Assembly: GCF_900115615.1 (NCBI RefSeq)
Contig: NZ_FOXB01000002.1
Coordinates: 1 to 64,000 of the forward strand
DNA: 64,000 bases
Reading direction: 5' to 3'
Origin: Hydrogenimonas thermophila
Lineage (GTDB): Bacteria; Campylobacterota; Campylobacteria; Campylobacterales; Hydrogenimonadaceae
Shown: piece by piece, positions 40,832 through 51,909 of the stretch
Numbering within the stretch: position 1 is the stretch's first letter
Layout of the letters: every line of letters begins with the position of its first letter
The notes under the pieces: model-generated
Seen by the model: the letters and a program-made list of their open reading frames with translations, nothing else
What the model was told of the DNA's origin: nothing
Database searches by the model: none
Position numbers and translations under genes: made by a program

Positions 40832-40845
40832 TTGATAAAAATCAA
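40832..40845 (+). promoter_or_regulatory. Fnr-type operator of the nap operon
   Basis: TTGAT (40832-40836), AAAA, ATCAA (40841-40845) is a perfect Fnr consensus palindrome. Its centre lies 29.5 bases before the -10-like TAAAAT at 40868, which puts it at about -41.5, the class II activator position. Confidence 0.88.
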
Positions 40846-40867: not shown

Positions 40868-40873
40868 TAAAAT
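40868..40873 (+). promoter_or_regulatory. -10 element of the nap promoter
   Basis: TAAAAT at 40868-40873 is correctly placed below the Fnr box, and no -35 is needed at a class II site. Transcription would begin near 40880, a few bases before the large stem-loop. Confidence 0.65.
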
Positions 40874-40987: not shown

Positions 40988-43792
40988 ATGTCATCTATGT
41001 CACGACGTGACTTCCTGAAGAGTGCTGCGGCTGCTACTGCTGCAAGTGCTGTTGGGATGTCAGTTCCTACTGAAGTAGAAGCAAAAGCCAGTAAAGCTGA
41101 GAGCGGATGGCGATGGGATAAAGCCGTATGCCGTTTCTGTGGTACTGGATGTGGTATTATGGTTGCAACAAAAGATGGAAAAATTGTTGCAGTAAAAGGT
41201 GACCCAGCAGCACCAGTAAATAGAGGTCTTAACTGTATTAAAGGTTATTTTAACGCAAAAATTATGTATGGTGCTGACCGCCTTACCACTCCACTTCTAA
41301 GAATGGATGAAAAAGGTAACTTCGATAAAAAAGGAAAGTTCCGTCCAGTTAGTTGGAAAAGAGCTTTCGATGAGATGGAGCGTGCTATTCGTAAAGCACT
41401 AAAAGAGGGTGGTCCTGAAGCTGTTGCAGTATTTGGTTCTGGACAGTACACTATTCAAGAGGGTTATGCTGCTGCAAAAATGATGAAAGCAGGTTTTAGA
41501 TCTAACGCTATTGATCCAAATGCTCGCCACTGTATGGCATCTGCTGTTGTTGGATTCTTCCAAACATTCGGTATCGATGAGCCGTCTGGATGTTATGATG
41601 ACATTGAAATTACCGATACTATTGTAACCTGGGGTGCCAATATGGCAGAGATGCACCCAATTCTTTGGGCTCGTGTAACAGACCGAAAACTCTCTGACCC
41701 TGATAGAGTTAAAGTTGTTAACATCTCTACATATAGACACCGATGTTCTGACCTAGCAGATATGGAAATTATTTTCCGCCCAGGTTCAGATCTAGCAATG
41801 TGGAACTATCTTGCACATGAAATTGTTTACAACTACCCTGAAGTAATTGATTGGGATTTTGTTAAGAAGCATACAATTTTTGCTACAGGGTTTGTTGAAA
41901 CAGGTTACGGTATGAGAATGCCAGATGAAGCCAAAAAACTTGGTTATAGCGATAAAGAACTTGAAACAATTAAAGAAGAAGCAAGCCATACTGTAACTGA
42001 AAGAGAAGCTCCTGGTTTAGCACCACTTGGATACAAAGCTGGTGATAAAATGGAGATGAAACATAGAGGTCATGCTCTTGGTCACTGGGAAATCACTTTT
42101 GAAGAGTTTAAAAAAGGTTTAGAGCCTTATACATTAGATTATGTAGCAAAAGTTGCAAAAGGTGATCCTGAAGAAAGCATTGAAAGCTTTAAGAAAAAAC
42201 TTGTAGCACTTCGTGATCTTTACATCGATAAGAGCCGCAAAATGGTTAGCTTCTGGACCATGGGTATGAACCAGCACTATCGAGGTTCTTGGGTTAATGA
42301 GCAATCTTACATGGTTCACTTCCTTCTTGGAAAACAAGCAAAACCAGGTATGGGTGCATTCTCTCTAACTGGACAGCCTTCAGCTTGTGGTACTGCTCGT
42401 GAAGTTGGTACATTTACTCACCGCTTGCCAGCAGACATGCTTGTTAAAATTCCTAAACATAGAAAAATTGCTGAAAAAATCTGGAAACTTCCAGAAGGTA
42501 CAATCAACCCTGTTGGGTACCAGCATATTATGAATATCCATCGACAAATAGAAGATGGTAAAATTAAATTTGCATGGGTAAACGTATGTAACCCTTACCA
42601 TGACACTGCAAATGCAAACCACTGGATTAAAGCAGCTCGTGAAAAAGATTGCTTTATCGTAACATCTGACGGATACCCTGGAATCTCTGCAAAAGTTTCT
42701 GACCTTGTTCTTCCATCTGCAATGATTTATGAAAAATGGGGATCATACGGTAATGCAGAGCGACGTACACAGCACTGGAGACAGCAAGTTCTTCCTGTTG
42801 GTGATGCAATGAGTGATACTTGGCAGTGGATAGAACTTTCTAAACGCTTTACAGTTAAAGACCTTTGGGGTGAATGGACTATCAAAGGTGGTAAAAAACT
42901 TCCAAATGTCATTGAAAAAGCTAAAGCGATGGGATATAAAGAAGATACTACAATGTTCGAAATCCTTTTCGCTAATGATTACTACAGAAGCTTTAAAGCT
43001 GATGATCCGATTATGGAAGACTTTGACAATACTGAAGTATTTGGTGACAGCCGAAATGTTATCGGTAGTGATGGAAAGCCTTGGAAAGGGTATGGATTCT
43101 TTATTCAAAAAGCTCTTTGGGAAGAGTATCGCAAGTTTGGTGCTGGTCACGGTCATGACTTAGCAGATTTTGATACTTACCATAGAGTACGCGGACTTCG
43201 CTGGCCTGTTGTTGATGGTAAAGATACTCCATGGCGATTTAATGTTAAATATGATCCATATGCTCGTAAGCATGCTAAACCAGGTGAAGAGTTTGCATTC
43301 TATGGACCAGCTCTTAAAACAATTAAGCGTGGTGATCTTAAAAAGATTGATCCAGCAAAAGGTAAAATTAACCTTGCAAACAAAGCTAAAATCTTCTTCA
43401 GGCCTTACATGGATCCAACAGAACAGCCAGATAAAGAGTATGATACTTGGCTATGTACAGGTCGTGTAATTGAACACTGGCACAGTGGTACTATGACAAT
43501 GCGCGTTCCTGAACTTTTCCGTGCAATGCCTGAAGCATTCTGCTATATGAACCCTAAAGATGCAAAAGCAAAAGGTCTTAAAGAGGGCGATATGGTATGG
43601 ATCGAAAGCCGCCGTGGTAAAGTTAAAGCACACGTTAAAACTCGTGGTCGTAACAGACCTCCTCGTGGTTTGGTTTTCGTGCCTTGGTTTGATGAGCGTG
43701 TATTCATTAACAAAGTTTGTCTTGATCACACTTGCCCAATGTCAAAACAGACAGACTATAAAAAGTGTGCAGTTAAAATCTATAAAGCATAA
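40988..43792 (+). CDS. napA: Periplasmic nitrate reductase, catalytic subunit NapA
   Basis: The 934-residue protein has a Tat signal (SRRDFLKS), a [4Fe-4S] site at Cys48, Cys51, Cys55 and Cys83 (CRFCGTGC, then NCIKGY), and the Mo-ligating Cys182 in [12 protein letters not shown], which separates it from the Asp-ligated type II enzyme at 5642. It reduces nitrate to nitrite in the periplasm using bis-MGD. The length fits the epsilon-type NapA. AGGAGG lies 5 bases before the ATG. Control is by the Fnr-type box and leader stem-loop upstream. Confidence 0.97.
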
Positions 43793-43827: not shown

Positions 43828-43881
43828 TATACATAAGGTTTAATACAAACCTAAATATCATTGAAAAGGTGGATTGAGTCT

Positions 43882-44718
43882 TTGAACACTCAAAACCCAA
43901 AAAAAGATACAAAAACCAGTATAAGTGAGAGAAGACGGTTTCTGAGTATTATGGCTCAGAGTATCGGTCTTTCAGCTCTTGGTGGAATTATATGGACAGG
44001 GTATGTAGAAGAGGCAAAAGCTTCACCTCTGCTTTTACGCCCACCTGCTGCACTTCCTGAACCAAAGTTCTTGAGAACCTGTATAAAGTGTGGACAGTGT
44101 GCTGAAGCTTGCCCTTACGATACTCTGCTAATGGCAAAACCAGGAGATGGTTTACCAATGGGAACACCATACTTCATTCCAAGAGATATTCCTTGTTATA
44201 TGTGTACAGATATTCCTTGTGTACCTGTATGTCCTACAGGTGCGTTGGATGAAGATGCAGTTTCCAGTGTCGTAGATGGTAAAAAAGTACTTGATATCAA
44301 CAAAGCACAGATGGGGCTTGCTGTAGTTGATCATGAATCGTGTGTAGCATTCTGGGGTATACAATGTGATGCTTGCTATCGTGCCTGTCCTGTTCTTGGA
44401 AAAGCTATTACAATTGAGTTTATCCGAAATGAGAGAACAGGTAAGCATGCAAAACTTGTACCTGTTGTTCATGCAGATCATTGTACTGGATGTGGTTTAT
44501 GTGAACGTGCTTGTGTAACTGAAAAAGCTGCTATCTTTGTCTTACCTAGAGATATCGCTATGGGAAAACCTGGTGACTACTATGTCAAAGGTTGGAGCAA
44601 AAAAGATCAGGAACGCATTAAACAGCGTGATCTGACCAAACTTGAAACCAAAACTGAGCGTAGCGAAAAGAAACCGCAAGACTATTTAAATATGGATGAG
44701 GGGTTGTTCGATGACTAG
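43882..44718 (+). CDS. napG: Ferredoxin-type menaquinol-oxidation protein NapG
   Basis: The 278-residue protein has a Tat signal (SERRRFLSIMAQS) and four cysteine clusters: CIKCGQCAEACP, CYMCTDIPCVPVCP, CDACYRACP and CTGCGLCERAC. NapG and the membrane protein NapH pass electrons from menaquinol to NapB/NapA. The start is uncertain: TTG 43882 has AAGGTGG 9 bases upstream; an earlier in-frame TTG at 43861 would add seven residues but lacks a ribosome site. It overlaps napH by 8 bases. Confidence 0.93.
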   Translation: MNTQNPKKDTKTSISERRRFLSIMAQSIGLSALGGIIWTGYVEEAKASPLLLRPPAALPEPKFLRTCIKCGQCAEACPYDTLLMAKPGDGLPMGTPYFIPRDIPCYMCTDIPCVPVCPTGALDEDAVSSVVDGKKVLDINKAQMGLAVVDHESCVAFWGIQCDACYRACPVLGKAITIEFIRNERTGKHAKLVPVVHADHCTGCGLCERACVTEKAAIFVLPRDIAMGKPGDYYVKGWSKKDQERIKQRDLTKLETKTERSEKKPQDYLNMDEGLFDD

Positions 44719-45532
44719 AATATTGAAAATGAGATATCTGATCCTCAGACGTATTACTCAAGTCGGACTCCTCTTTCTATATTTTGCTGCAAATGCATAT
44801 GGTTGGAAAATTTTAAGTGGAACATTAAGTTCATCAAAACTTTTTGATACTATTCCACTTAGTGATCCTTTTGCTGTATTGCAGATGCTTTCTGCTGGAG
44901 CATTGATGGGTATTAATGTTTTTGTTGGTGCCGTTATTATTATTCTTTTTTATGGGATAATTGGAGGACGTGCATTTTGTAGTTGGGTATGCCCTGTTAA
45001 TATGATTACAGATTTGGCTAACTGGCTAAGACGAAAACTTTTGCTTGACAAAGCAGAACGAAAAGTATGGATCAGCAGAAATACTCGTTATTGGGTAATT
45101 GGGCTCTCTCTTATTGTTTCAGCTATTACAGGTCTTGCTGCGTTTGAGCTTGTCAGCCCTATAACAATTTTTAATCGCGGTATTATATTTGGAATGGGAA
45201 TGACAGGTGCTGTTCTAGTAGCTATTTTTCTCTTTGACCTATTTGGAGTTAAAAATGGTTGGTGTGGACATATTTGTCCTCTTGGAGGTATTTACTCTTT
45301 AATTGGACGATTCAGTCTAATTCGGGTTAAACATAATCAGCAAAATTGTACACTATGTATGAAATGTAAAGAGGTTTGTCCTGAAAACCAAGTTCTTTTT
45401 ATGATAGGCAAAGATAGTACAACAGTAAATATGGGTGAATGCTCCAACTGTGCACGTTGTATCGAAGTATGTGATGATGATGCACTTAGGTTTAGTATAA
45501 GAGATTTTGCAAAAAGGAAGGAGTCAAAATGA
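44711..45532 (+). CDS. napH: Membrane quinol dehydrogenase component NapH
   Basis: The 273-residue protein has four hydrophobic segments, two cytoplasmic CxxxCP motifs after membrane helices (CSWVCPVN and CGHICPLGG) and two [4Fe-4S] motifs near the C-terminus (CTLCMKCKEVCP and CSNCARCIEVC). ATG 44711 is chosen because GAGGGG precedes it by 7 bases; the ORF is open 5 codons earlier. It overlaps napB by 4 bases. No napC is in the cluster, so NapGH is the electron route here. Confidence 0.93.
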   Translation: MTRILKMRYLILRRITQVGLLFLYFAANAYGWKILSGTLSSSKLFDTIPLSDPFAVLQMLSAGALMGINVFVGAVIIILFYGIIGGRAFCSWVCPVNMITDLANWLRRKLLLDKAERKVWISRNTRYWVIGLSLIVSAITGLAAFELVSPITIFNRGIIFGMGMTGAVLVAIFLFDLFGVKNGWCGHICPLGGIYSLIGRFSLIRVKHNQQNCTLCMKCKEVCPENQVLFMIGKDSTTVNMGECSNCARCIEVCDDDALRFSIRDFAKRKESK

Positions 45533-46137
45533 AAAAAATTATTCAATCAGCCCTCTGCGCAGCATTGATACTGGGTCTTAATGCTTGTGCTAACAATGAA
45601 GGGGCAAGTAATGTAGGAAATAGTGAAGCTGCCAATGCCAAAACTGTAATAACAGAAGAGGAGCTTGGTCTTAGAAAAGAGAACCTTTATACGGAACAAG
45701 GAATAGCACCAGTAACAGCAGATTTTACAAAACCGGCACCTGGTATGTCTAAAAAAATTGATCGCTCTTATGAAAATGCTCCTCCACTTATTCCTCACAG
45801 TGTAGATGGTATGTTGCCTATTACTATTAAAAATAATGCATGTACCGGATGTCATATGCCGGCAGTTGCAAAAAGTGTGAATGCAACACCAATTTCACCA
45901 ACCCATTTCAAAGACTTTTTTGCTGAAACAAAAGAGAATTTGAAAAAATATAAGGGTTCTAAAGTTCATGCTGATGAGAGTGATATTGCTCCACAAAGAT
46001 ACAACTGCTCTCAGTGCCACGTACCTCAAGCAAATGTAAAACCTTTGGTTGAAAATAAATTCCAGCCAGATTACAGAAACCCTAATGAAAAACAGAAATC
46101 AAATCTAATTGATACTCTAAATGAGGGTGTTCGCTAA
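45529..46137 (+). CDS. napB: Diheme cytochrome c NapB, with lipobox
   Basis: The 202-residue protein has two heme motifs, CTGCH and CSQCH, with the NapB contexts NNACTGCHMPA and YNCSQCHVPQ, and His residues for axial ligation. It transfers electrons to NapA. The N-terminus reads LGLNACAN at residues 15-22, which fits a lipoprotein signal with Cys20 as the lipidated residue; soluble NapB proteins usually have ordinary signal peptides, so this one may be membrane-anchored. Confidence 0.93.
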   Translation: MKKIIQSALCAALILGLNACANNEGASNVGNSEAANAKTVITEEELGLRKENLYTEQGIAPVTADFTKPAPGMSKKIDRSYENAPPLIPHSVDGMLPITIKNNACTGCHMPAVAKSVNATPISPTHFKDFFAETKENLKKYKGSKVHADESDIAPQRYNCSQCHVPQANVKPLVENKFQPDYRNPNEKQKSNLIDTLNEGVR

Positions 46138-46138
46138 T

Positions 46139-46642
46139 ATGCCTGATATTGAAAGACGGAGGCTTTTTGCCTCTGTCTCATCTTTAATAAGTAATCAAAA
46201 GAGGGAAGAAAAAAGTAGAGTTTACCCTCCTTATTGCTCTGATGAGTCTCTTTTTCTCAAGCTATGTCCAGAATGTATAGATAAACCTTGTGCCAAAGCG
46301 TGTGAAGAAGAGATAATATTTATTGATGAAAATGGAGTGCCTACTCTAAATTTTGCAGAGAGAGGCTGTACTTTTTGTGATGCTTGTGTTGATGCTTGTA
46401 AAAATGATGTTCTTAATGATAAATCATTGAACTCAATTAAAGCAACAGTTGAAATAAATGTATTAAAGTGTATAGCTTGGCACCAAGTTATGTGTAGTAG
46501 TTGCAAAGAGCCTTGTTTAGAAGATGCTATCACTTTTTTAGGACTTTTTAGACCAGAAATAGATAATGGAAAATGTACATCTTGCGGATGGTGTTTATCA
46601 GTTTGCCCTGCTGATGCAATAGAAGTTATACCTAACATATAA
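46139..46642 (+). CDS. napF: Ferredoxin-type maturation protein NapF
   Basis: The 167-residue cytoplasmic protein has [4Fe-4S] motifs CPECIDKPCAKACEE, CTFCDACVDACKN, CSSCKEPCLEDA and CTSCGWCLSVCPAD. NapF assists Fe-S or Mo cofactor loading of NapA in the cytoplasm before Tat export. The start is ATG 46139, one base after the napB stop; the ORF is open further upstream but this M (MPDIERRRLF) matches the family start. Confidence 0.88.
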   Translation: MPDIERRRLFASVSSLISNQKREEKSRVYPPYCSDESLFLKLCPECIDKPCAKACEEEIIFIDENGVPTLNFAERGCTFCDACVDACKNDVLNDKSLNSIKATVEINVLKCIAWHQVMCSSCKEPCLEDAITFLGLFRPEIDNGKCTSCGWCLSVCPADAIEVIPNI

Positions 46643-46655
46643 AAAAGGATAAAAG

Positions 46656-47618
46656 ATGATAAGAATGTTGTTTGTATTTTGTCTTATATCAGTGTTTTCA
46701 ATAGCATCTCCTATTACTGTAAAGCCATCATACTCTATAGATGTTGATGGAAATGTAGTAGAGTTTGTTCGCAAAAACAGCACTCTTTATGTGGCAACAG
46801 ATGCAGGTAAACTTGAAATTTACGATTGGAAAAAAAATAGACTTCTTGAGAAAATAAAATTTAATACTATTCACGATTTTATGGGTGATCCGATTGCTCC
46901 TAAAGTTTTTGGGGTAGATGTAAATAGTAATGGAGACACCTTAATAATTATGGTTCAAGATGAAGGTGGTGAGAGGATTCTTTATAAATATAAAGATAAA
47001 AAACTTACAAAACTTTTAGATAAAAGTGCACATATTCAGATGCGTGAAGCGCGTTTTGTAGATAATGATCATATTCTTATTGCATCAATGAGTAATGAAC
47101 TAATACTTTTTCAAATTTCAACTAGCAAAATTTTATATAAAAATAAATTGAGCCTTTCAACATTTTCAGATTTTCAACTAAATGAAGATAATAGTAAAGT
47201 TGCAAGTACCTGTGAATCAGGCATTGTTTATGTTGTTGACACAAAAACCGGTAAAGTACTTAAAACTCTTGAAGGTGGCAATAAAGACAATGTTTTTAAA
47301 GTTGATTACAAAAACTCATATGTGCTTGCTTGTGGTCAAGATAGAAAGGCTGTCCTTTACGGGGTAAAGAGAGATAGTTTAACAATCTATCCAACACAGT
47401 TTTTAGTATATGCAGGGGCATTAAACAAAGATGCTACTCTTAGCGCTTTTGGAATAAATGAACAAAATGATATTGGCATATATGACAATATTTTAAAATC
47501 TATTAAATATAAGCTTGTTGGACAACAGTCAACACTAAATACCATTGTTTTTATTGATGATAAAACTTTAATCAGTTCAAGCGATGACAATCATATCTTA
47601 ATTTGGAGGATTCCATGA
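46656..47618 (+). CDS. napL: Periplasmic beta-propeller protein NapL
   Basis: The 320-residue protein has a signal peptide (MLFVFCLISVFSIAS) and WD40-like repeats with strands such as LYVATDAGKLEIYDWKKN, VYVVDTKTGKVLKTLEGG and TLISSSDDNHILIWRIP. NapL is found only in epsilon-type nap operons, between napF and napD, as here; its function is not settled, but loss in relatives lowers nitrate reductase activity modestly. AAGGA precedes the ATG by 6-7 bases. Confidence 0.85.
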   Translation: MIRMLFVFCLISVFSIASPITVKPSYSIDVDGNVVEFVRKNSTLYVATDAGKLEIYDWKKNRLLEKIKFNTIHDFMGDPIAPKVFGVDVNSNGDTLIIMVQDEGGERILYKYKDKKLTKLLDKSAHIQMREARFVDNDHILIASMSNELILFQISTSKILYKNKLSLSTFSDFQLNEDNSKVASTCESGIVYVVDTKTGKVLKTLEGGNKDNVFKVDYKNSYVLACGQDRKAVLYGVKRDSLTIYPTQFLVYAGALNKDATLSAFGINEQNDIGIYDNILKSIKYKLVGQQSTLNTIVFIDDKTLISSSDDNHILIWRIP

Positions 47619-47968
47619 ATATTTCTAGCATAGTTGTACAAGTTCGTAGTGAATATATTGATGAAGTTGTAAATACTCTTAAAGAGTCTGATTTTTGTGA
47701 TTATCACTTTCATGATAAATCTATAGGTAAAATAATTGTAACAGTTGAAGGTGAAAATATTAGTGAAGAGATAGAAAAAGTAAAAAAGATTCAAGCTGTA
47801 CCACATGTCATAGCTGCTGATATGATGATGGCTTATAGTGAAGATGAGCTTGAAGCTGAAAGATCAAAATTAGAAACAGGTCCAAATGTACCTGAAATGC
47901 TTAATGATGACACAATTCGCGCCGAAGATATTGTTTATAACGGCGATCTTAAGAAAAAAATAATATAA
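47615..47968 (+). CDS. napD: NapA signal-peptide chaperone NapD
   Basis: The 117-residue protein has the NapD ferredoxin-like fold: ISSIVVQVRSEYIDEVVNTL, GKIIVTVEGENISEEIEKV and VPHVIAADMMMAYSE. NapD binds the NapA Tat signal. The start is ATG 47615, after GGAGG, and overlaps napL as ATGA; the ORF runs 4 codons earlier. An acidic tail of about 25 residues after the domain is longer than in the enteric protein. Confidence 0.88.
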   Translation: MNISSIVVQVRSEYIDEVVNTLKESDFCDYHFHDKSIGKIIVTVEGENISEEIEKVKKIQAVPHVIAADMMMAYSEDELEAERSKLETGPNVPEMLNDDTIRAEDIVYNGDLKKKII

Positions 47969-47974
47969 ATATTT

Positions 47975-47997
47975 GGGATCAACCCCTGATCCCTTTT
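47975..47997 (+). terminator. Rho-independent terminator of the nap operon
   Basis: GGGATCA (47975-47981) pairs with TGATCCC (47987-47993), loop ACCCC, and TTTT follows (47994-47997). It lies 6 bases after the napD stop codon. Confidence 0.88.
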
Positions 47998-48222: not shown

Positions 48223-48246
48223 TAAAACTAAAGTCAGGGGTTGCCA

Positions 48247-48804
48247 ATGAAGCAGGAGAAGAAGAGCTTATCAAAAATGGCTCTATTCACAATCATCTTG
48301 ATAGGAATAGTTGTGGGCGCAGTTGGCTCATTTACAACAGCAGTTATGGTAGAGAAAACCAGCGGGAAAGAGTTCTGTACCCAGTGTCATACTATGCAGC
48401 CCATGGCTGACTCCTATCTGGCTGATATACATGGGGGCAAAAATAAAGAGGGTCTGACAGCAAAATGTGTTGATTGTCACTTACCTCATGATTCTCTTAT
48501 GGGGTATTTGGTAGAGAAGGCTAAAACAGGCATACATGATGTTTGGGCTGAATTTACATATGACAAAAGCAAAATTGATTGGCAAGAGAAGCGCAAGCAT
48601 GCCAAACATTTTGTATTTGATAGTGGATGTCTACATTGTCATACTAATCTTAAAGATGCAACAATGGGCACACCTAAAGGATTTATAGCTCATAAGGCTT
48701 ATTTCCTTGATAAAAAGAAAAAGTGTGTCGAGTGTCATGAAAATGTAGGTCACCATAGTTTAGGTGATTACATTTCTCAAATCCAAACTAAGGAGAAAAA
48801 GTGA
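48247..48804 (+). CDS. NapC/NirT/NrfH-family tetraheme cytochrome c
   Basis: The 185-residue protein has one N-terminal membrane anchor (about 10-32) and four CxxCH motifs (CTQCH, CVDCH, CLHCH, CVECH). This is the NrfH-type menaquinol dehydrogenase that hands electrons to a periplasmic cytochrome. The next gene encodes the octaheme partner, so it serves that enzyme. ATG 48247 (AGGGG 6 bases upstream) is preferred to the TTG at 48241. The mRNA leader has three hairpins. Confidence 0.92.
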   Translation: MKQEKKSLSKMALFTIILIGIVVGAVGSFTTAVMVEKTSGKEFCTQCHTMQPMADSYLADIHGGKNKEGLTAKCVDCHLPHDSLMGYLVEKAKTGIHDVWAEFTYDKSKIDWQEKRKHAKHFVFDSGCLHCHTNLKDATMGTPKGFIAHKAYFLDKKKKCVECHENVGHHSLGDYISQIQTKEKK

Positions 48805-48830
48805 ATCCAACACCAAAAAAGGAGGGATTA

Positions 48831-50207
48831 ATGCGGTTTAAGTCATTGATGATCGCTACTTTGCTGGCATCTGCATTTAGCATATCTGCTAATGCATCAG
48901 CAAAAGCGACTGAACATGTTGGGGATATCAGCCCTAAAAACTTGAAAGTTACTCGTGGAATGACAGCAGAAGCAAAACGCTGTGTTGAGTGTCACGCTGA
49001 AAAAACACCTGGTCATGTAAATGATTGGAAACAGAGTCGACACGGACATGTTGGAGTATCTTGTATTGACTGTCACGGTGTCAAAAAAGATAACCCAATG
49101 GCAGCTCAAAACTGTCCAGGAGTAAAAGGAACAAAAACATACGTTTCTGTACTTGTAAGTCCAAAAACTTGTGAAAAATGTCACCCTAATGAGGTTGAAG
49201 AGTTTCAACATAGTGGTCATGCTCGTGGTGCACTTCAAGTTCGTTCAAAAGCTGGTATGCAAGCTTTAATGAAGAAAATTGAAGGTCGTGATCACCCAAA
49301 ATTCAAAAACTCACCTGAAGCTACTGGATGTATGCAGTGCCATGGTTCAATCATTGAGCTTGATGCAAACAAACAACCAACTGCTGAAACTTGGCCAAAC
49401 TATGGTATTGGTAATGTATACCCTGATGGTGGTGTAGGTAACTGTAAATCTTGCCACAGTGGACACAAGTTCTCTATTGAAGAGGCTCGTAAACCAGCTG
49501 CTTGTGCAAGTTGTCACTTAGGACCTGACCATCCAGATATTGAGATTTACAACAACTCTATGCATGGACATATCTATAATACAGAGGGTAATACTTGGAA
49601 ATATGACTCTGCTCCAGATGCTTGGGAACCAGGTGATTATCGTGCGCCAACTTGTGCTACTTGTCATATGAGTGGTATTGGTGATCTTAGAACTACTCAC
49701 AATGTTAGTCGACGACTTAAGTGGAATATCTGGGCTCCAATTTCTAAACTTAGAGATGGTGGATATGACACAGCTGTAAGTACTTATGAGAAAACTGGAA
49801 AAATTACTAAAGGTAATCCTTTAGCTGGACACCCAGATGGACATAAAGCTGGTCGTGCAGAGATGGAAAAAGTATGTAAGTCTTGCCATACAACACTTCA
49901 TACTAAAAACTTCTTCAAAATGGCTGATCAACATGTAGAACTTTACAATGTATATGCTAAAGAAGCTAAAGGTATGATCGATGAGTTGACCAAAAAAGGT
50001 CTAATGATGAAAGATAAGTGGTCTGATCCTGCATTTAAAGTATGGTATCATCTATGGCACCATCAAGGACGACGTATGAGACAAGGTGCACTTATGGGAG
50101 CTCCTGACTATGCTCACTGGCATGGTGTATTCGAACTTCAGCAAGATATTCGTGAGTTGAGAGCAATCTACAACCAAAGAATTAAAAGCGGAAAAATAGA
50201 GCACTAA
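48831..50207 (+). CDS. hao: Octaheme cytochrome c of the epsilon hydroxylamine-oxidoreductase (HAO) type
   Basis: The 458-residue protein has a signal peptide (MRFKSLMIATLLASAFSISANA) and eight CxxCH motifs in order: CVECH, CIDCH, CEKCH, CMQCH, CKSCH, CASCH, CATCH, CKSCH. The C-terminal WHHQGRRMRQGALMGAPDYAHWHG resembles the HAO core. In Campylobacterota these proteins are paired with an NrfH-like donor and act as nitrite reductases, replacing NrfA; that role is known for the family and inferred here. ATG 48831 has AGGAGGG before it. A GTG at 48801, also with a ribosome site, would add ten residues. Confidence 0.9.
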   Translation: MRFKSLMIATLLASAFSISANASAKATEHVGDISPKNLKVTRGMTAEAKRCVECHAEKTPGHVNDWKQSRHGHVGVSCIDCHGVKKDNPMAAQNCPGVKGTKTYVSVLVSPKTCEKCHPNEVEEFQHSGHARGALQVRSKAGMQALMKKIEGRDHPKFKNSPEATGCMQCHGSIIELDANKQPTAETWPNYGIGNVYPDGGVGNCKSCHSGHKFSIEEARKPAACASCHLGPDHPDIEIYNNSMHGHIYNTEGNTWKYDSAPDAWEPGDYRAPTCATCHMSGIGDLRTTHNVSRRLKWNIWAPISKLRDGGYDTAVSTYEKTGKITKGNPLAGHPDGHKAGRAEMEKVCKSCHTTLHTKNFFKMADQHVELYNVYAKEAKGMIDELTKKGLMMKDKWSDPAFKVWYHLWHHQGRRMRQGALMGAPDYAHWHGVFELQQDIRELRAIYNQRIKSGKIEH

Positions 50208-50264: not shown

Positions 50265-50293
50265 TATAACACCATTTAAAAAATGATGTTATA
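50265..50293. other. Second inverted repeat before the parvulin gene
   Basis: TATAACA (50265-50271) and TGTTATA (50287-50293) pair, and CATTT/AAATG extends the stem to 12 of 13 positions. It lies in the leader of the parvulin gene and may be an operator or a second transcript-end hairpin. Confidence 0.5.
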
Positions 50294-50339
50294 CCACTCT
50301 TTTAACTCTTGCAAAATTACTTTAAAAAAGGATATAAAG

Positions 50340-51221
50340 TTGAAAAAGCTATTTTTTTCAATTATTGCACTATTAATACTAAGTTTCTCTGTTCAGGCTT
50401 CAGACGTTTTGGCAATTGTCAATGGCTATAAAATTACAACAGATGTTGCACCTAGAAATTTCAATGACTTAAATAGTTCGGAGAAACATAAAATAGTAAA
50501 CAGACTTATAGAAAAATATTTAGCAGCAAATTATGCACTTAATACAGATATTGTCAATGATCCAGAATATAAAAAGGTTTTGAAGCATATCTTAAATCTG
50601 TCTTCAAAACCTAAAAAAAGTGAAACTTTGGCTTCAGCTGTAAAAAAAAGTACAGGTTATACTGAGGAGCAGCTTTTCAGTAAAAAAGGTCTTTTAGCTT
50701 TTGATTTTATTTTGGAAAAAAAAGCAAACTCTATGAAGCCTGATGAAAAAGTTTTAAGAGAGTATTACGAAAAGAATAAATTTAAGTATGATACTCCAGC
50801 AATGGTTGAACTTGCTACAATTGTTGTAGATAGCAAAGAAGAAGCAGAAAAAATAATGAAAGAGTTAAAAGGTTCAAAAGGAGATTATAAACTCTTTAGT
50901 TCATTAGCAAAAAAGTATTCAAAAGCTCCTGATGCCATTGATGGTGGATATATGGGTAAAATACCTATAAGTGATTTAAATGAAGAGATAAGTAAATATA
51001 TTTTGCCTCTTGACCGAGGAGAACATACTAAGCCTATTAAAACAGTTTTTGGATATCAGATCTATTATGTAATCAATCAAATTCCAGCTGTTAATACAAC
51101 TTTTGATATGGTAAAAGAGCGTGTCAAAGATGAGTATATTCGCAAAGAAGTTAAAAAATGGGCATTTGATACTATTCATAAGTTAAAAAATTCTGCTAAA
51201 ATAGAGCTAAAAATAGATTAA
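50340..51221 (+). CDS. Periplasmic parvulin-type peptidyl-prolyl isomerase (SurA/PpiC-like)
   Basis: The 293-residue protein has a signal peptide (KKLFFSIIALLILSFSVQA) followed by a SurA-N-like helical chaperone region and a rotamase domain (about 150-250: VELATIVVDSKEEAEKIMKEL, FSSLAKKYSKAPDAIDGGYMGKIP, VFGYQIYYVINQ). It helps fold secreted or outer-membrane proteins. The start is TTG 50340, 7 bases after AAGGA, which gives a clean signal peptide; the ORF begins 19 codons earlier within the inverted repeat. It lies between the cytochrome operon and the regulator. Confidence 0.85.
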   Translation: MKKLFFSIIALLILSFSVQASDVLAIVNGYKITTDVAPRNFNDLNSSEKHKIVNRLIEKYLAANYALNTDIVNDPEYKKVLKHILNLSSKPKKSETLASAVKKSTGYTEEQLFSKKGLLAFDFILEKKANSMKPDEKVLREYYEKNKFKYDTPAMVELATIVVDSKEEAEKIMKELKGSKGDYKLFSSLAKKYSKAPDAIDGGYMGKIPISDLNEEISKYILPLDRGEHTKPIKTVFGYQIYYVINQIPAVNTTFDMVKERVKDEYIRKEVKKWAFDTIHKLKNSAKIELKID

Positions 51222-51246: not shown

Positions 51247-51909
51247 TTGAGCTCAAACATACCATTAATAAAAGGTATATTGAAAGATTTTTTCCTTTTC
51301 ACACATTTAGATGAGGAAAAACTTAACTCTTTAGTATCAATATCTAGTCTTGTAGAATATAAAAAAGAGAGTATTCTATTTTTTGAGGGAGAAGAGCCAA
51401 AATCCCTTATTATTCTTATTGATGGTATTTTAAAAGTTTATAAAACTGATTTAAAAGGTAATAAAGTAATTCTTCACAGATTTTACCCTGTAGACTTAAT
51501 TGCAGAGTTGGTAAATATTGAGCATATGAATTACCCTGCATCTGGAGAGTTTGAAACAGATGGAAAAGCTATTTTAATAAACTATAAAGAGTTTGAGAAA
51601 AAGTTTCTCAAAGATCCTGAAGTATCTTTTGCATTTATAAAATCTCTCTCAAAAAAGATTAAATATCTTGAAAATGTTATTGCTACAAATTTAGTAATGA
51701 ACTCTACAGCTCGAGTAGCAAAATTTATTTGTGAGCATGGTCATGAAATATCAAAATTAAAAAAAAGTATGATAGCAGCTGATCTTAATATGGCTCCTGA
51801 AACTCTTTCTAGAATTTTAAAAAAACTTTCAACTCTTAAATTGATAGAAAGAGAGAAAGATGAAATTATAATTCTTGATAAAGAAGGTCTTACAACATTC
51901 TACTTATAG
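51247..51909 (+). CDS. Crp/Fnr-family regulator without an Fe-S cysteine cluster
   Basis: The 220-residue protein has an N-terminal cyclic-nucleotide-type beta-roll (ILFFEGEEPKSLIILIDGILKVYK), a long dimerisation helix (about 125-150) and a C-terminal winged helix. In the recognition helix APETLSRILKKL, Glu185, Ser188 and Arg189 repeat the E-x2-S-R of Fnr, predicting TTGAT half-sites. The only cysteine is Cys162, so there is no Fnr-like 4Fe-4S sensor; heme-based NO sensing, as in DNR, or another ligand is possible. TTG 51247 is the start, with AAGGA before it. The perfect Fnr-type box at 40832 is the natural target. Confidence 0.88.
   Translation: MSSNIPLIKGILKDFFLFTHLDEEKLNSLVSISSLVEYKKESILFFEGEEPKSLIILIDGILKVYKTDLKGNKVILHRFYPVDLIAELVNIEHMNYPASGEFETDGKAILINYKEFEKKFLKDPEVSFAFIKSLSKKIKYLENVIATNLVMNSTARVAKFICEHGHEISKLKKSMIAADLNMAPETLSRILKKLSTLKLIEREKDEIIILDKEGLTTFYL

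Follow-up and report, generated by a model that had tools for sequence, protein, structure and literature searches.

According to the accessible part of PMC6682613, Campylobacterota control nitrate respiration despite encoding no FNR, ArcA or NarP. The DNA analysed here, a 64,000-nucleotide stretch from Hydrogenimonas thermophila that we call the window, poses the question of how this is done at a single locus, since it holds a nap operon, an operon for a Hao-family cytochrome and, behind the latter, the gene of a Crp/Fnr regulator. Which box does this protein read, which signal does it sense, and why does its gene lie where it does? Our preferred reading, which we regard as probable, is that of a dimeric activator of the Nss family, most probably of the NssB branch, which would act like DNR on nap and on NO-related operons in response to an NO-haem signal. 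Regulators of this type (Nss/DNR) are already known, and what is unusual is the place of the gene in the hao operon. The case provides a predicted regulon with fixed promoter geometry for one genus, tied to an NO reductase of the gNOR type, which has been little studied. A search of the open-access literature found no paper on this regulator protein.

The regulator and the other Crp/Fnr proteins of the genome

The regulator gene (51247-51909, + strand) has a TTG start at 51247, preceded by the purine stretch AAAAGGAAAAAG, and a stop at 51909, yielding a protein of 220 amino acids. This protein matches cNMP_binding (PF00027, 51.3 bits, 1.2e-13) and HTH_Crp_2 (PF13545, 43.1 bits, 4.3e-11), both over the cut-off, and the combination of a beta-roll with this helix-turn-helix places it in the Crp/Fnr superfamily. 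FNR carries an E-x2-S-R motif and has a box of the TTGAT-N4-ATCAA type. The first-pass annotation had matched Glu185, Ser188 and Arg189 to this motif, and the translated frame confirms the three residues; in a predicted model (mean pLDDT 87) they lie in the recognition helix (residues 184-196, around P184-E185-T-L-S188-R189).

That annotation had also counted a single cysteine. Indeed, C162 is the only one, which, as far as the sequence can tell, excludes an Fe-S cluster of the Fnr type as oxygen sensor; the protein is hence not an FNR proper, which has a 4Fe-4S cysteine cluster. Among its homologues, 18 of the 69 rows of our alignment A2 (the window protein plus 68 of 80 named loci holding an Nss gene) have no cysteine at all. 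Nor does it resemble a cAMP-binding CRP, whose phosphate-binding cassette is marked by Arg-Ser: E87 is kept, but the regulator has PASG in the Arg-Ser region. Conservation of E185 in A2 is partly built in, as the locus scan used PETLSR among its patterns; the rows of the same-genus homologue list and of a 30-row set (L034-L063) were chosen without this pattern.

The whole 2.44-Mb assembly, rated 100% complete, yields four cNMP_binding matches, namely one 616-aa frame and three Crp/Fnr proteins, for which HTH_Crp_2 scores over the cut-off as well. The three carry PETLSR (the regulator), PVTLSR (on contig C48) and RHVVNR (on contig C30) in their helix-turn-helix, with one, two and one cysteines, respectively, so that E-x2-S-R is present only in the window regulator. 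Another Fnr with a cysteine cluster, which had been named as the protein that might control nap instead, was looked for among these Crp/Fnr proteins of the genome and not found, in agreement with the absence of FNR from Campylobacterota in the accessible part of PMC6682613.

The C48 protein (L016:1405-2055) is a second close Nss paralog, 43% identical to the regulator, with Val replacing the key Glu. Its gene adjoins one for a cytochrome c and two small ones that look NifX-like and DUF134-like by eye. Since no same-genus counterpart of it stands among the homologues listed, it was possibly acquired from outside the genus and may read another box.

Box and promoter geometry at the predicted targets

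The nap operon starts with napA (40988-43792, + strand; NCBIfam NapA equivalogs above cut-off) and continues through ORFs at 43861-47968 (+) which, by resemblance, we take to be napG, H, B, F, L and D. The half-site TTGAT pointed out before napA belongs to a perfect TTGAT-N4-ATCAA box, TTGATAAAAATCAA, at 40832-40845 (+), the sole exact match within the 64-kb window. A predicted -10 element, TAAAAT (40868-40873, +), lies 22 bp past the box and sets the predicted transcription start at about 40880, so that the box is centred at -41.5. In E. coli CRP and FNR promoters, class II sites are centred at this position, and from the sequence alone the nap promoter has this class II activator layout.

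This geometry was compared over the 15 of 18 genus genomes that contain napA. All 15 promoters carry TTGAY-N4-ATCAA at a distance of 157-168 bp upstream of the napA codons for SRRDF, with a gap of exactly 22 bp to TARAAT (15/15). The left half-site is TTGAC in 14 of them and TTGAT in the window alone. The nap box is thus real by virtue of its conservation, and not by the number of exact matches in the genome. Together with E185, S188 and R189, its retention in 15/15 genomes points to a DNA specificity of the FNR type. Control of nap by the regulator, as proposed in the first-pass annotation, is hence supported as a prediction by phylogenetic footprinting, by synteny (see below) and by the lack of a cysteine-cluster Fnr in this genome.

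Could the conserved boxes be read by another Crp/Fnr protein, that on C48 or that on C30, leaving the window regulator with other targets? The C48 protein is a close paralog encoded in the same genome, which speaks for this alternative. On the other hand, the box is found genus-wide, the C48 protein has Val for Glu and no same-genus counterpart listed, and the C30 protein carries RHVVNR. We therefore consider it highly improbable, and retain the window regulator as the predicted reader of the boxes.

A genome-wide search for TTGAT-N4-ATCAA, put forward earlier as a check, returned 18 sites, compared with 5 for the reversed pattern. As 15 of the 18 lie inside ORFs (two at ORF edges) and only 3 are intergenic, this count is weak evidence alone and we rejected it as such. 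The relaxed pattern TTGAY-N4-RTCAA gave 30 sites, with 21 for the control. A clearer contrast came from the 80 named loci (1.1 Mb, 13% outside ORFs), which were chosen for holding an Nss gene and some of which are closely related: 131 of the TTGA-N6-TCAA sites lie between genes and 52 inside them, while 11 other half-site permutations of the same layout occur 1-8 times each between genes, and other spacers (2-5, 7-12) 3-11 times each. The count tests the motif and not the identity of the binding protein. Genes found behind these sites include nap, nor and hemerythrin genes (gene names by eye).

Besides nap, two boxed promoters of this genome are conserved in the genus and have a suitably placed -10 element. 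The first, on contig C39 (L030:1545-1558), stands before an operon of hemerythrin, DUF2249, 420-aa membrane protein and FmdE-domain genes, in that order, and the box sits between this operon and a divergent siroheme-type Met8 gene. The membrane protein is NnrS-like by eye and matched no model. The box is present in 16 of 17 genus loci (missing in L213, genome G007); its gap to the -10 hexamer is 22 in 10 of the 15 loci evaluated and one base longer in the other 5.

The second, on contig C25, combines a box and TATAAT at a gap of 22 before a two-gene operon (C25:27839-30057; L284:3840-6058) encoding subunit II (cupredoxin-like) and subunit I (COX1 family), with a NarK-family transporter and a PP2C-kinase fusion lying upstream. 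The first gene of the operon is found in 11 of 18 genus genomes. The box is present in 9 of the 10 loci with upstream sequence (missing in L288, again G007), the eleventh, L290, being left out because a contig end cuts its upstream region; of these 9, 6 have the -10 element at a gap of 22 and 2 at one base more, and 1 is ambiguous. Curated models match the two subunits weakly, as oxidase, and a PDB look-up of subunit I returned oxidases only. Reading helix VI by eye against what we take to be the oxidase motif with the CuB His and Tyr, subunit I has D in their place. This fits gNOR, for which the accessible part of PMC8756737 gives an active-site D and lists Sulfurimonas, Sulfurovum and Persephonella, and we call the operon gNOR-like. 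The notion of a genome without any NO reductase, suggested by the lack of a cNorB match, was dropped when the TTGAY search led to this operon.

Two other sites were noted. On contig C18 (L011:1501-1514), an exact TTGATN4ATCAA lies 56 bp before lysA, with no -10 element at the expected place. On contig C8 (L178:1501-1514), TTGACAAAAGTCAA (TTGAC-N4-GTCAA) is followed by TAGAAT at a gap of 22, before a UvrD-like helicase gene, and may be a chance match.

Family placement and gene neighbourhood in relatives

The neighbouring cytochromes had been taken as a hint to a regulator of the DNR/NssR kind. DNR (3dkw) is indeed the best solved relative (3e-14 with the single sequence, 1.4e-27 with a profile), ahead of CRP and FNR. 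DNR of Pseudomonas aeruginosa reads TTGAT-N4-ATCAA and shares the PET[LF]SR recognition helix; it is distant in sequence, and has Glu at the position of the regulator's H77. FNR of E. coli and Aliivibrio fischeri is alike in fold and in its class II promoters (A. fischeri FNR against the regulator model: Z about 21, rmsd 2.3-2.4 A over 213-215 residues) and differs by its N-terminal cysteine cluster. The structure comparison is not discriminating, however, as its 998 chains are led by Crp/Fnr proteins of many kinds at Z 20-22. HcpR of Porphyromonas gingivalis, a haem-dependent NO sensor of the Crp/Fnr family, was not recovered by name among the close relatives of the regulator. NssR of Campylobacter jejuni is likewise a Crp/Fnr regulator of nitrosative stress genes, and from the same phylum. 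In the accessible part of PMC1274295 it reads TTAAC-N4-GTTAA, with A180/Q181, whereas the window regulator has E at the Q181 position and TTGAY boxes. Of the DNR/NssR assignment, the DNR-like part is hence supported, in the form of the NssA/NssB type (by the 3dkw match, the regulon and the nor/nir adjacency), and the C. jejuni NssR type does not.

The regulator shares the traits of the Nss family (Kern and Simon 2016, through the accessible parts of PMC6682613 and PMC11539149), being a campylobacterotal Crp/Fnr protein with a DNR-type helix-turn-helix, linkage to nap and nor, and TTGA-N6-TCAA sites. NssA and NssB of Wolinella succinogenes and Nitrosophilus labii are alike in all of this, with TTGA-N6-TCAA before nap or nor and the gene beside either of them. 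In the accessible text of PMC11539149, the nap-adjacent protein of N. labii has Wolinella NssA as its closest match (44.8% identity) and the nor-adjacent one has NssB (50.0%), with TTGA-N6-TCAA sites. In our tree, built from 139 of 141 rows (one non-homologue ORF and a duplicate of the window protein were removed), the window protein groups with its genus (support 100/99), near nor-adjacent proteins of other genera. A separate second clade (100/99) holds 14 paralogs labelled nap-adjacent, most with PETLSR and two with PATLSR.

All five 10-kb loci inspected in relatives (one of the same genus, four from outside it) show the regulator gene and a norC/norB/nirS-type cluster in divergent orientation, the names being given by eye and COX1, cytochrome c and Cytochrom_D1 domains found by Pfam in one of the five. 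The regulator gene is thus nor-adjacent like NIL_RS03815 of N. labii (PMC11539149, accessible part). This synteny with Nitrosophilus, along with the identities reported in the same source, suggests that the regulator most probably belongs to the NssB branch. Among the 15 genus genomes with napA, 12 have the regulator gene immediately before napA in the same orientation, its end no more than about 420 bp away. Only the window, G004 and G015 depart from this; in G015 the two genes may still be neighbours, since the regulator runs up to the end of a contig and the napA start is close to a second contig end. The window gene differs from NssA and NssB genes in lying in the hao operon, about 10 kb past the napA start, in a genome without nirS, cNor or nosZ matches.

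The hao operon and the signal

Beyond a possible terminator at the nap/hao junction (47975-47993, +; GGGATCAACCCCTGATCCC then TTTTAC, a pattern match only) follow genes on the + strand for a tetrahaem cytochrome of the NrfH/NapC type, haoC-like (48241-48804, by models), for an octahaem Hao-family cytochrome with eight CxxCH motifs, a probable nitrite reductase (48801-50207, by models and motif count), and for a peptidyl-prolyl isomerase-like protein (50283-51221), ending 25 bp before the regulator gene. The neighbours described as nitrite-reducing cytochromes are thus a tetrahaem and a Hao-family protein, and not NrfA. Reduction of nitrite to ammonium via Hao and hydroxylamine has been proposed for Nautilia in the accessible part of PMC2628731; a term search for regulation in the available text of PMC3701875 found nothing. 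The isomerase gene and hao probably form the operon that carries the regulator. Octahaem Hao was found in 2 of 18 genus genomes, the window genome and G015 (80% complete), and haoC, hao and the isomerase gene are consecutive in both, with the regulator next in the window only.

Direct control of hao by the regulator was considered and dropped because the scanned haoC upstream region holds no box at up to one mismatch to TTGA-N6-TCAA (350 bp in the window, 385 bp in G015, up to the haoC start). The link to nap therefore does not depend on the adjacency to hao, and is supported by the nap and nor adjacency in relatives.

The window genome yielded no match to the relatives' NorB (cNor), NirS or clade II NosZ, for which 13, 14 and 12 of the 18 genus genomes have matches, respectively (one NirS very weak, one NosZ partial). 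Owing to this absence, NO turnover is probably lower here than in relatives. This, like the lack of both the hemerythrin and the gNOR-like box in G007, counts against our preferred reading. Both haoC-hao genomes of the 18 (in the window, 48241-50207; and G015) are without nirS, cNorB and nosZ matches, an apparent swap of denitrification for ammonification. The regulator gene is relocated behind hao, away from any box, and it is this move into a hao operon, in a genome without nirS, cNor and nosZ, that is unusual.

Taken to its extreme, this loss would make the regulator a decaying leftover of lost denitrification and of the move to the hao operon, with its ancestral job gone and the boxes persisting by inertia. 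The missing nirS, cNorB and nosZ matches agree with that, as do the lack of a box at the gene's new promoter and the tree tips of the window and G015 proteins, at 0.22 and 0.38 longer than any others of the genus (no significance test). Yet the ORF and its recognition helix have remained intact, as have the three boxed promoters of nap, hemerythrin and gNOR in this genome, and we hold a decaying leftover to be most improbable.

As for the signal, NO-haem sensing is suggested by the regulon and the family, rather than by the protein itself. In the accessible part of PMC6682613, NssA, NssB and NssC mediate the responses of Wolinella to nitrate, NO and N2O, respectively, so that signals vary within the family. 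Given this, and given the location of the gene in the hao operon, the same regulator with the same targets could instead bind nitrate, nitrite or hydroxylamine (a Hao product or intermediate) directly in its pocket. The hemerythrin operon and the gNOR-like NO reductase among the predicted targets, the nor/nir neighbourhood in relatives, and the NO sensor DNR as best solved relative all argue against such direct binding, which we judge unlikely. An NO-responsive Nss activator thus remains the reading that we favour. It would bind TTGAY-N4-RTCAA boxes at -41.5 before the nap, gNOR-like and hemerythrin-DUF2249-membrane protein operons. A nitrogen oxide, most likely NO from nitrite reduction, would bind haem in the beta-roll pocket and turn the DNA-binding domains to the active state; RNA polymerase would then be recruited, the box replacing the -35 element at the target promoters. 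With its gene at the end of the hao operon, the dose of regulator would probably follow that of the nitrite-reducing enzyme.

The best candidate for the haem ligand is H77, in the beta-roll, which is present in 30/30 rows of L034-L063 and in 57/69 rows of A2. In the alignment with E. coli CRP it falls opposite Ser62, a residue near the cAMP pocket. This putative ligand would differ from those of DNR, which has Glu at this position, and of HcpR, for which the accessible part of PMC12750200 gives Met68.

A bolder proposal, which we hold to be unlikely, is that a denitrification (NO) regulator has been rewired here as an ammonification switch: nirS, cNor and nosZ would have been lost, Hao gained and the NssB-type gene relocated to the hao operon, such that hao expression would set the amount of sensor available for nap, gNOR and hemerythrin, with an H77 ligand unlike that of DNR or HcpR, or with an intermediate of the Hao pathway, for example hydroxylamine, being sensed. 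The nirS/nor-bearing relatives and this hao-bearing genome form a natural comparison for the signal sensed by Nss proteins.
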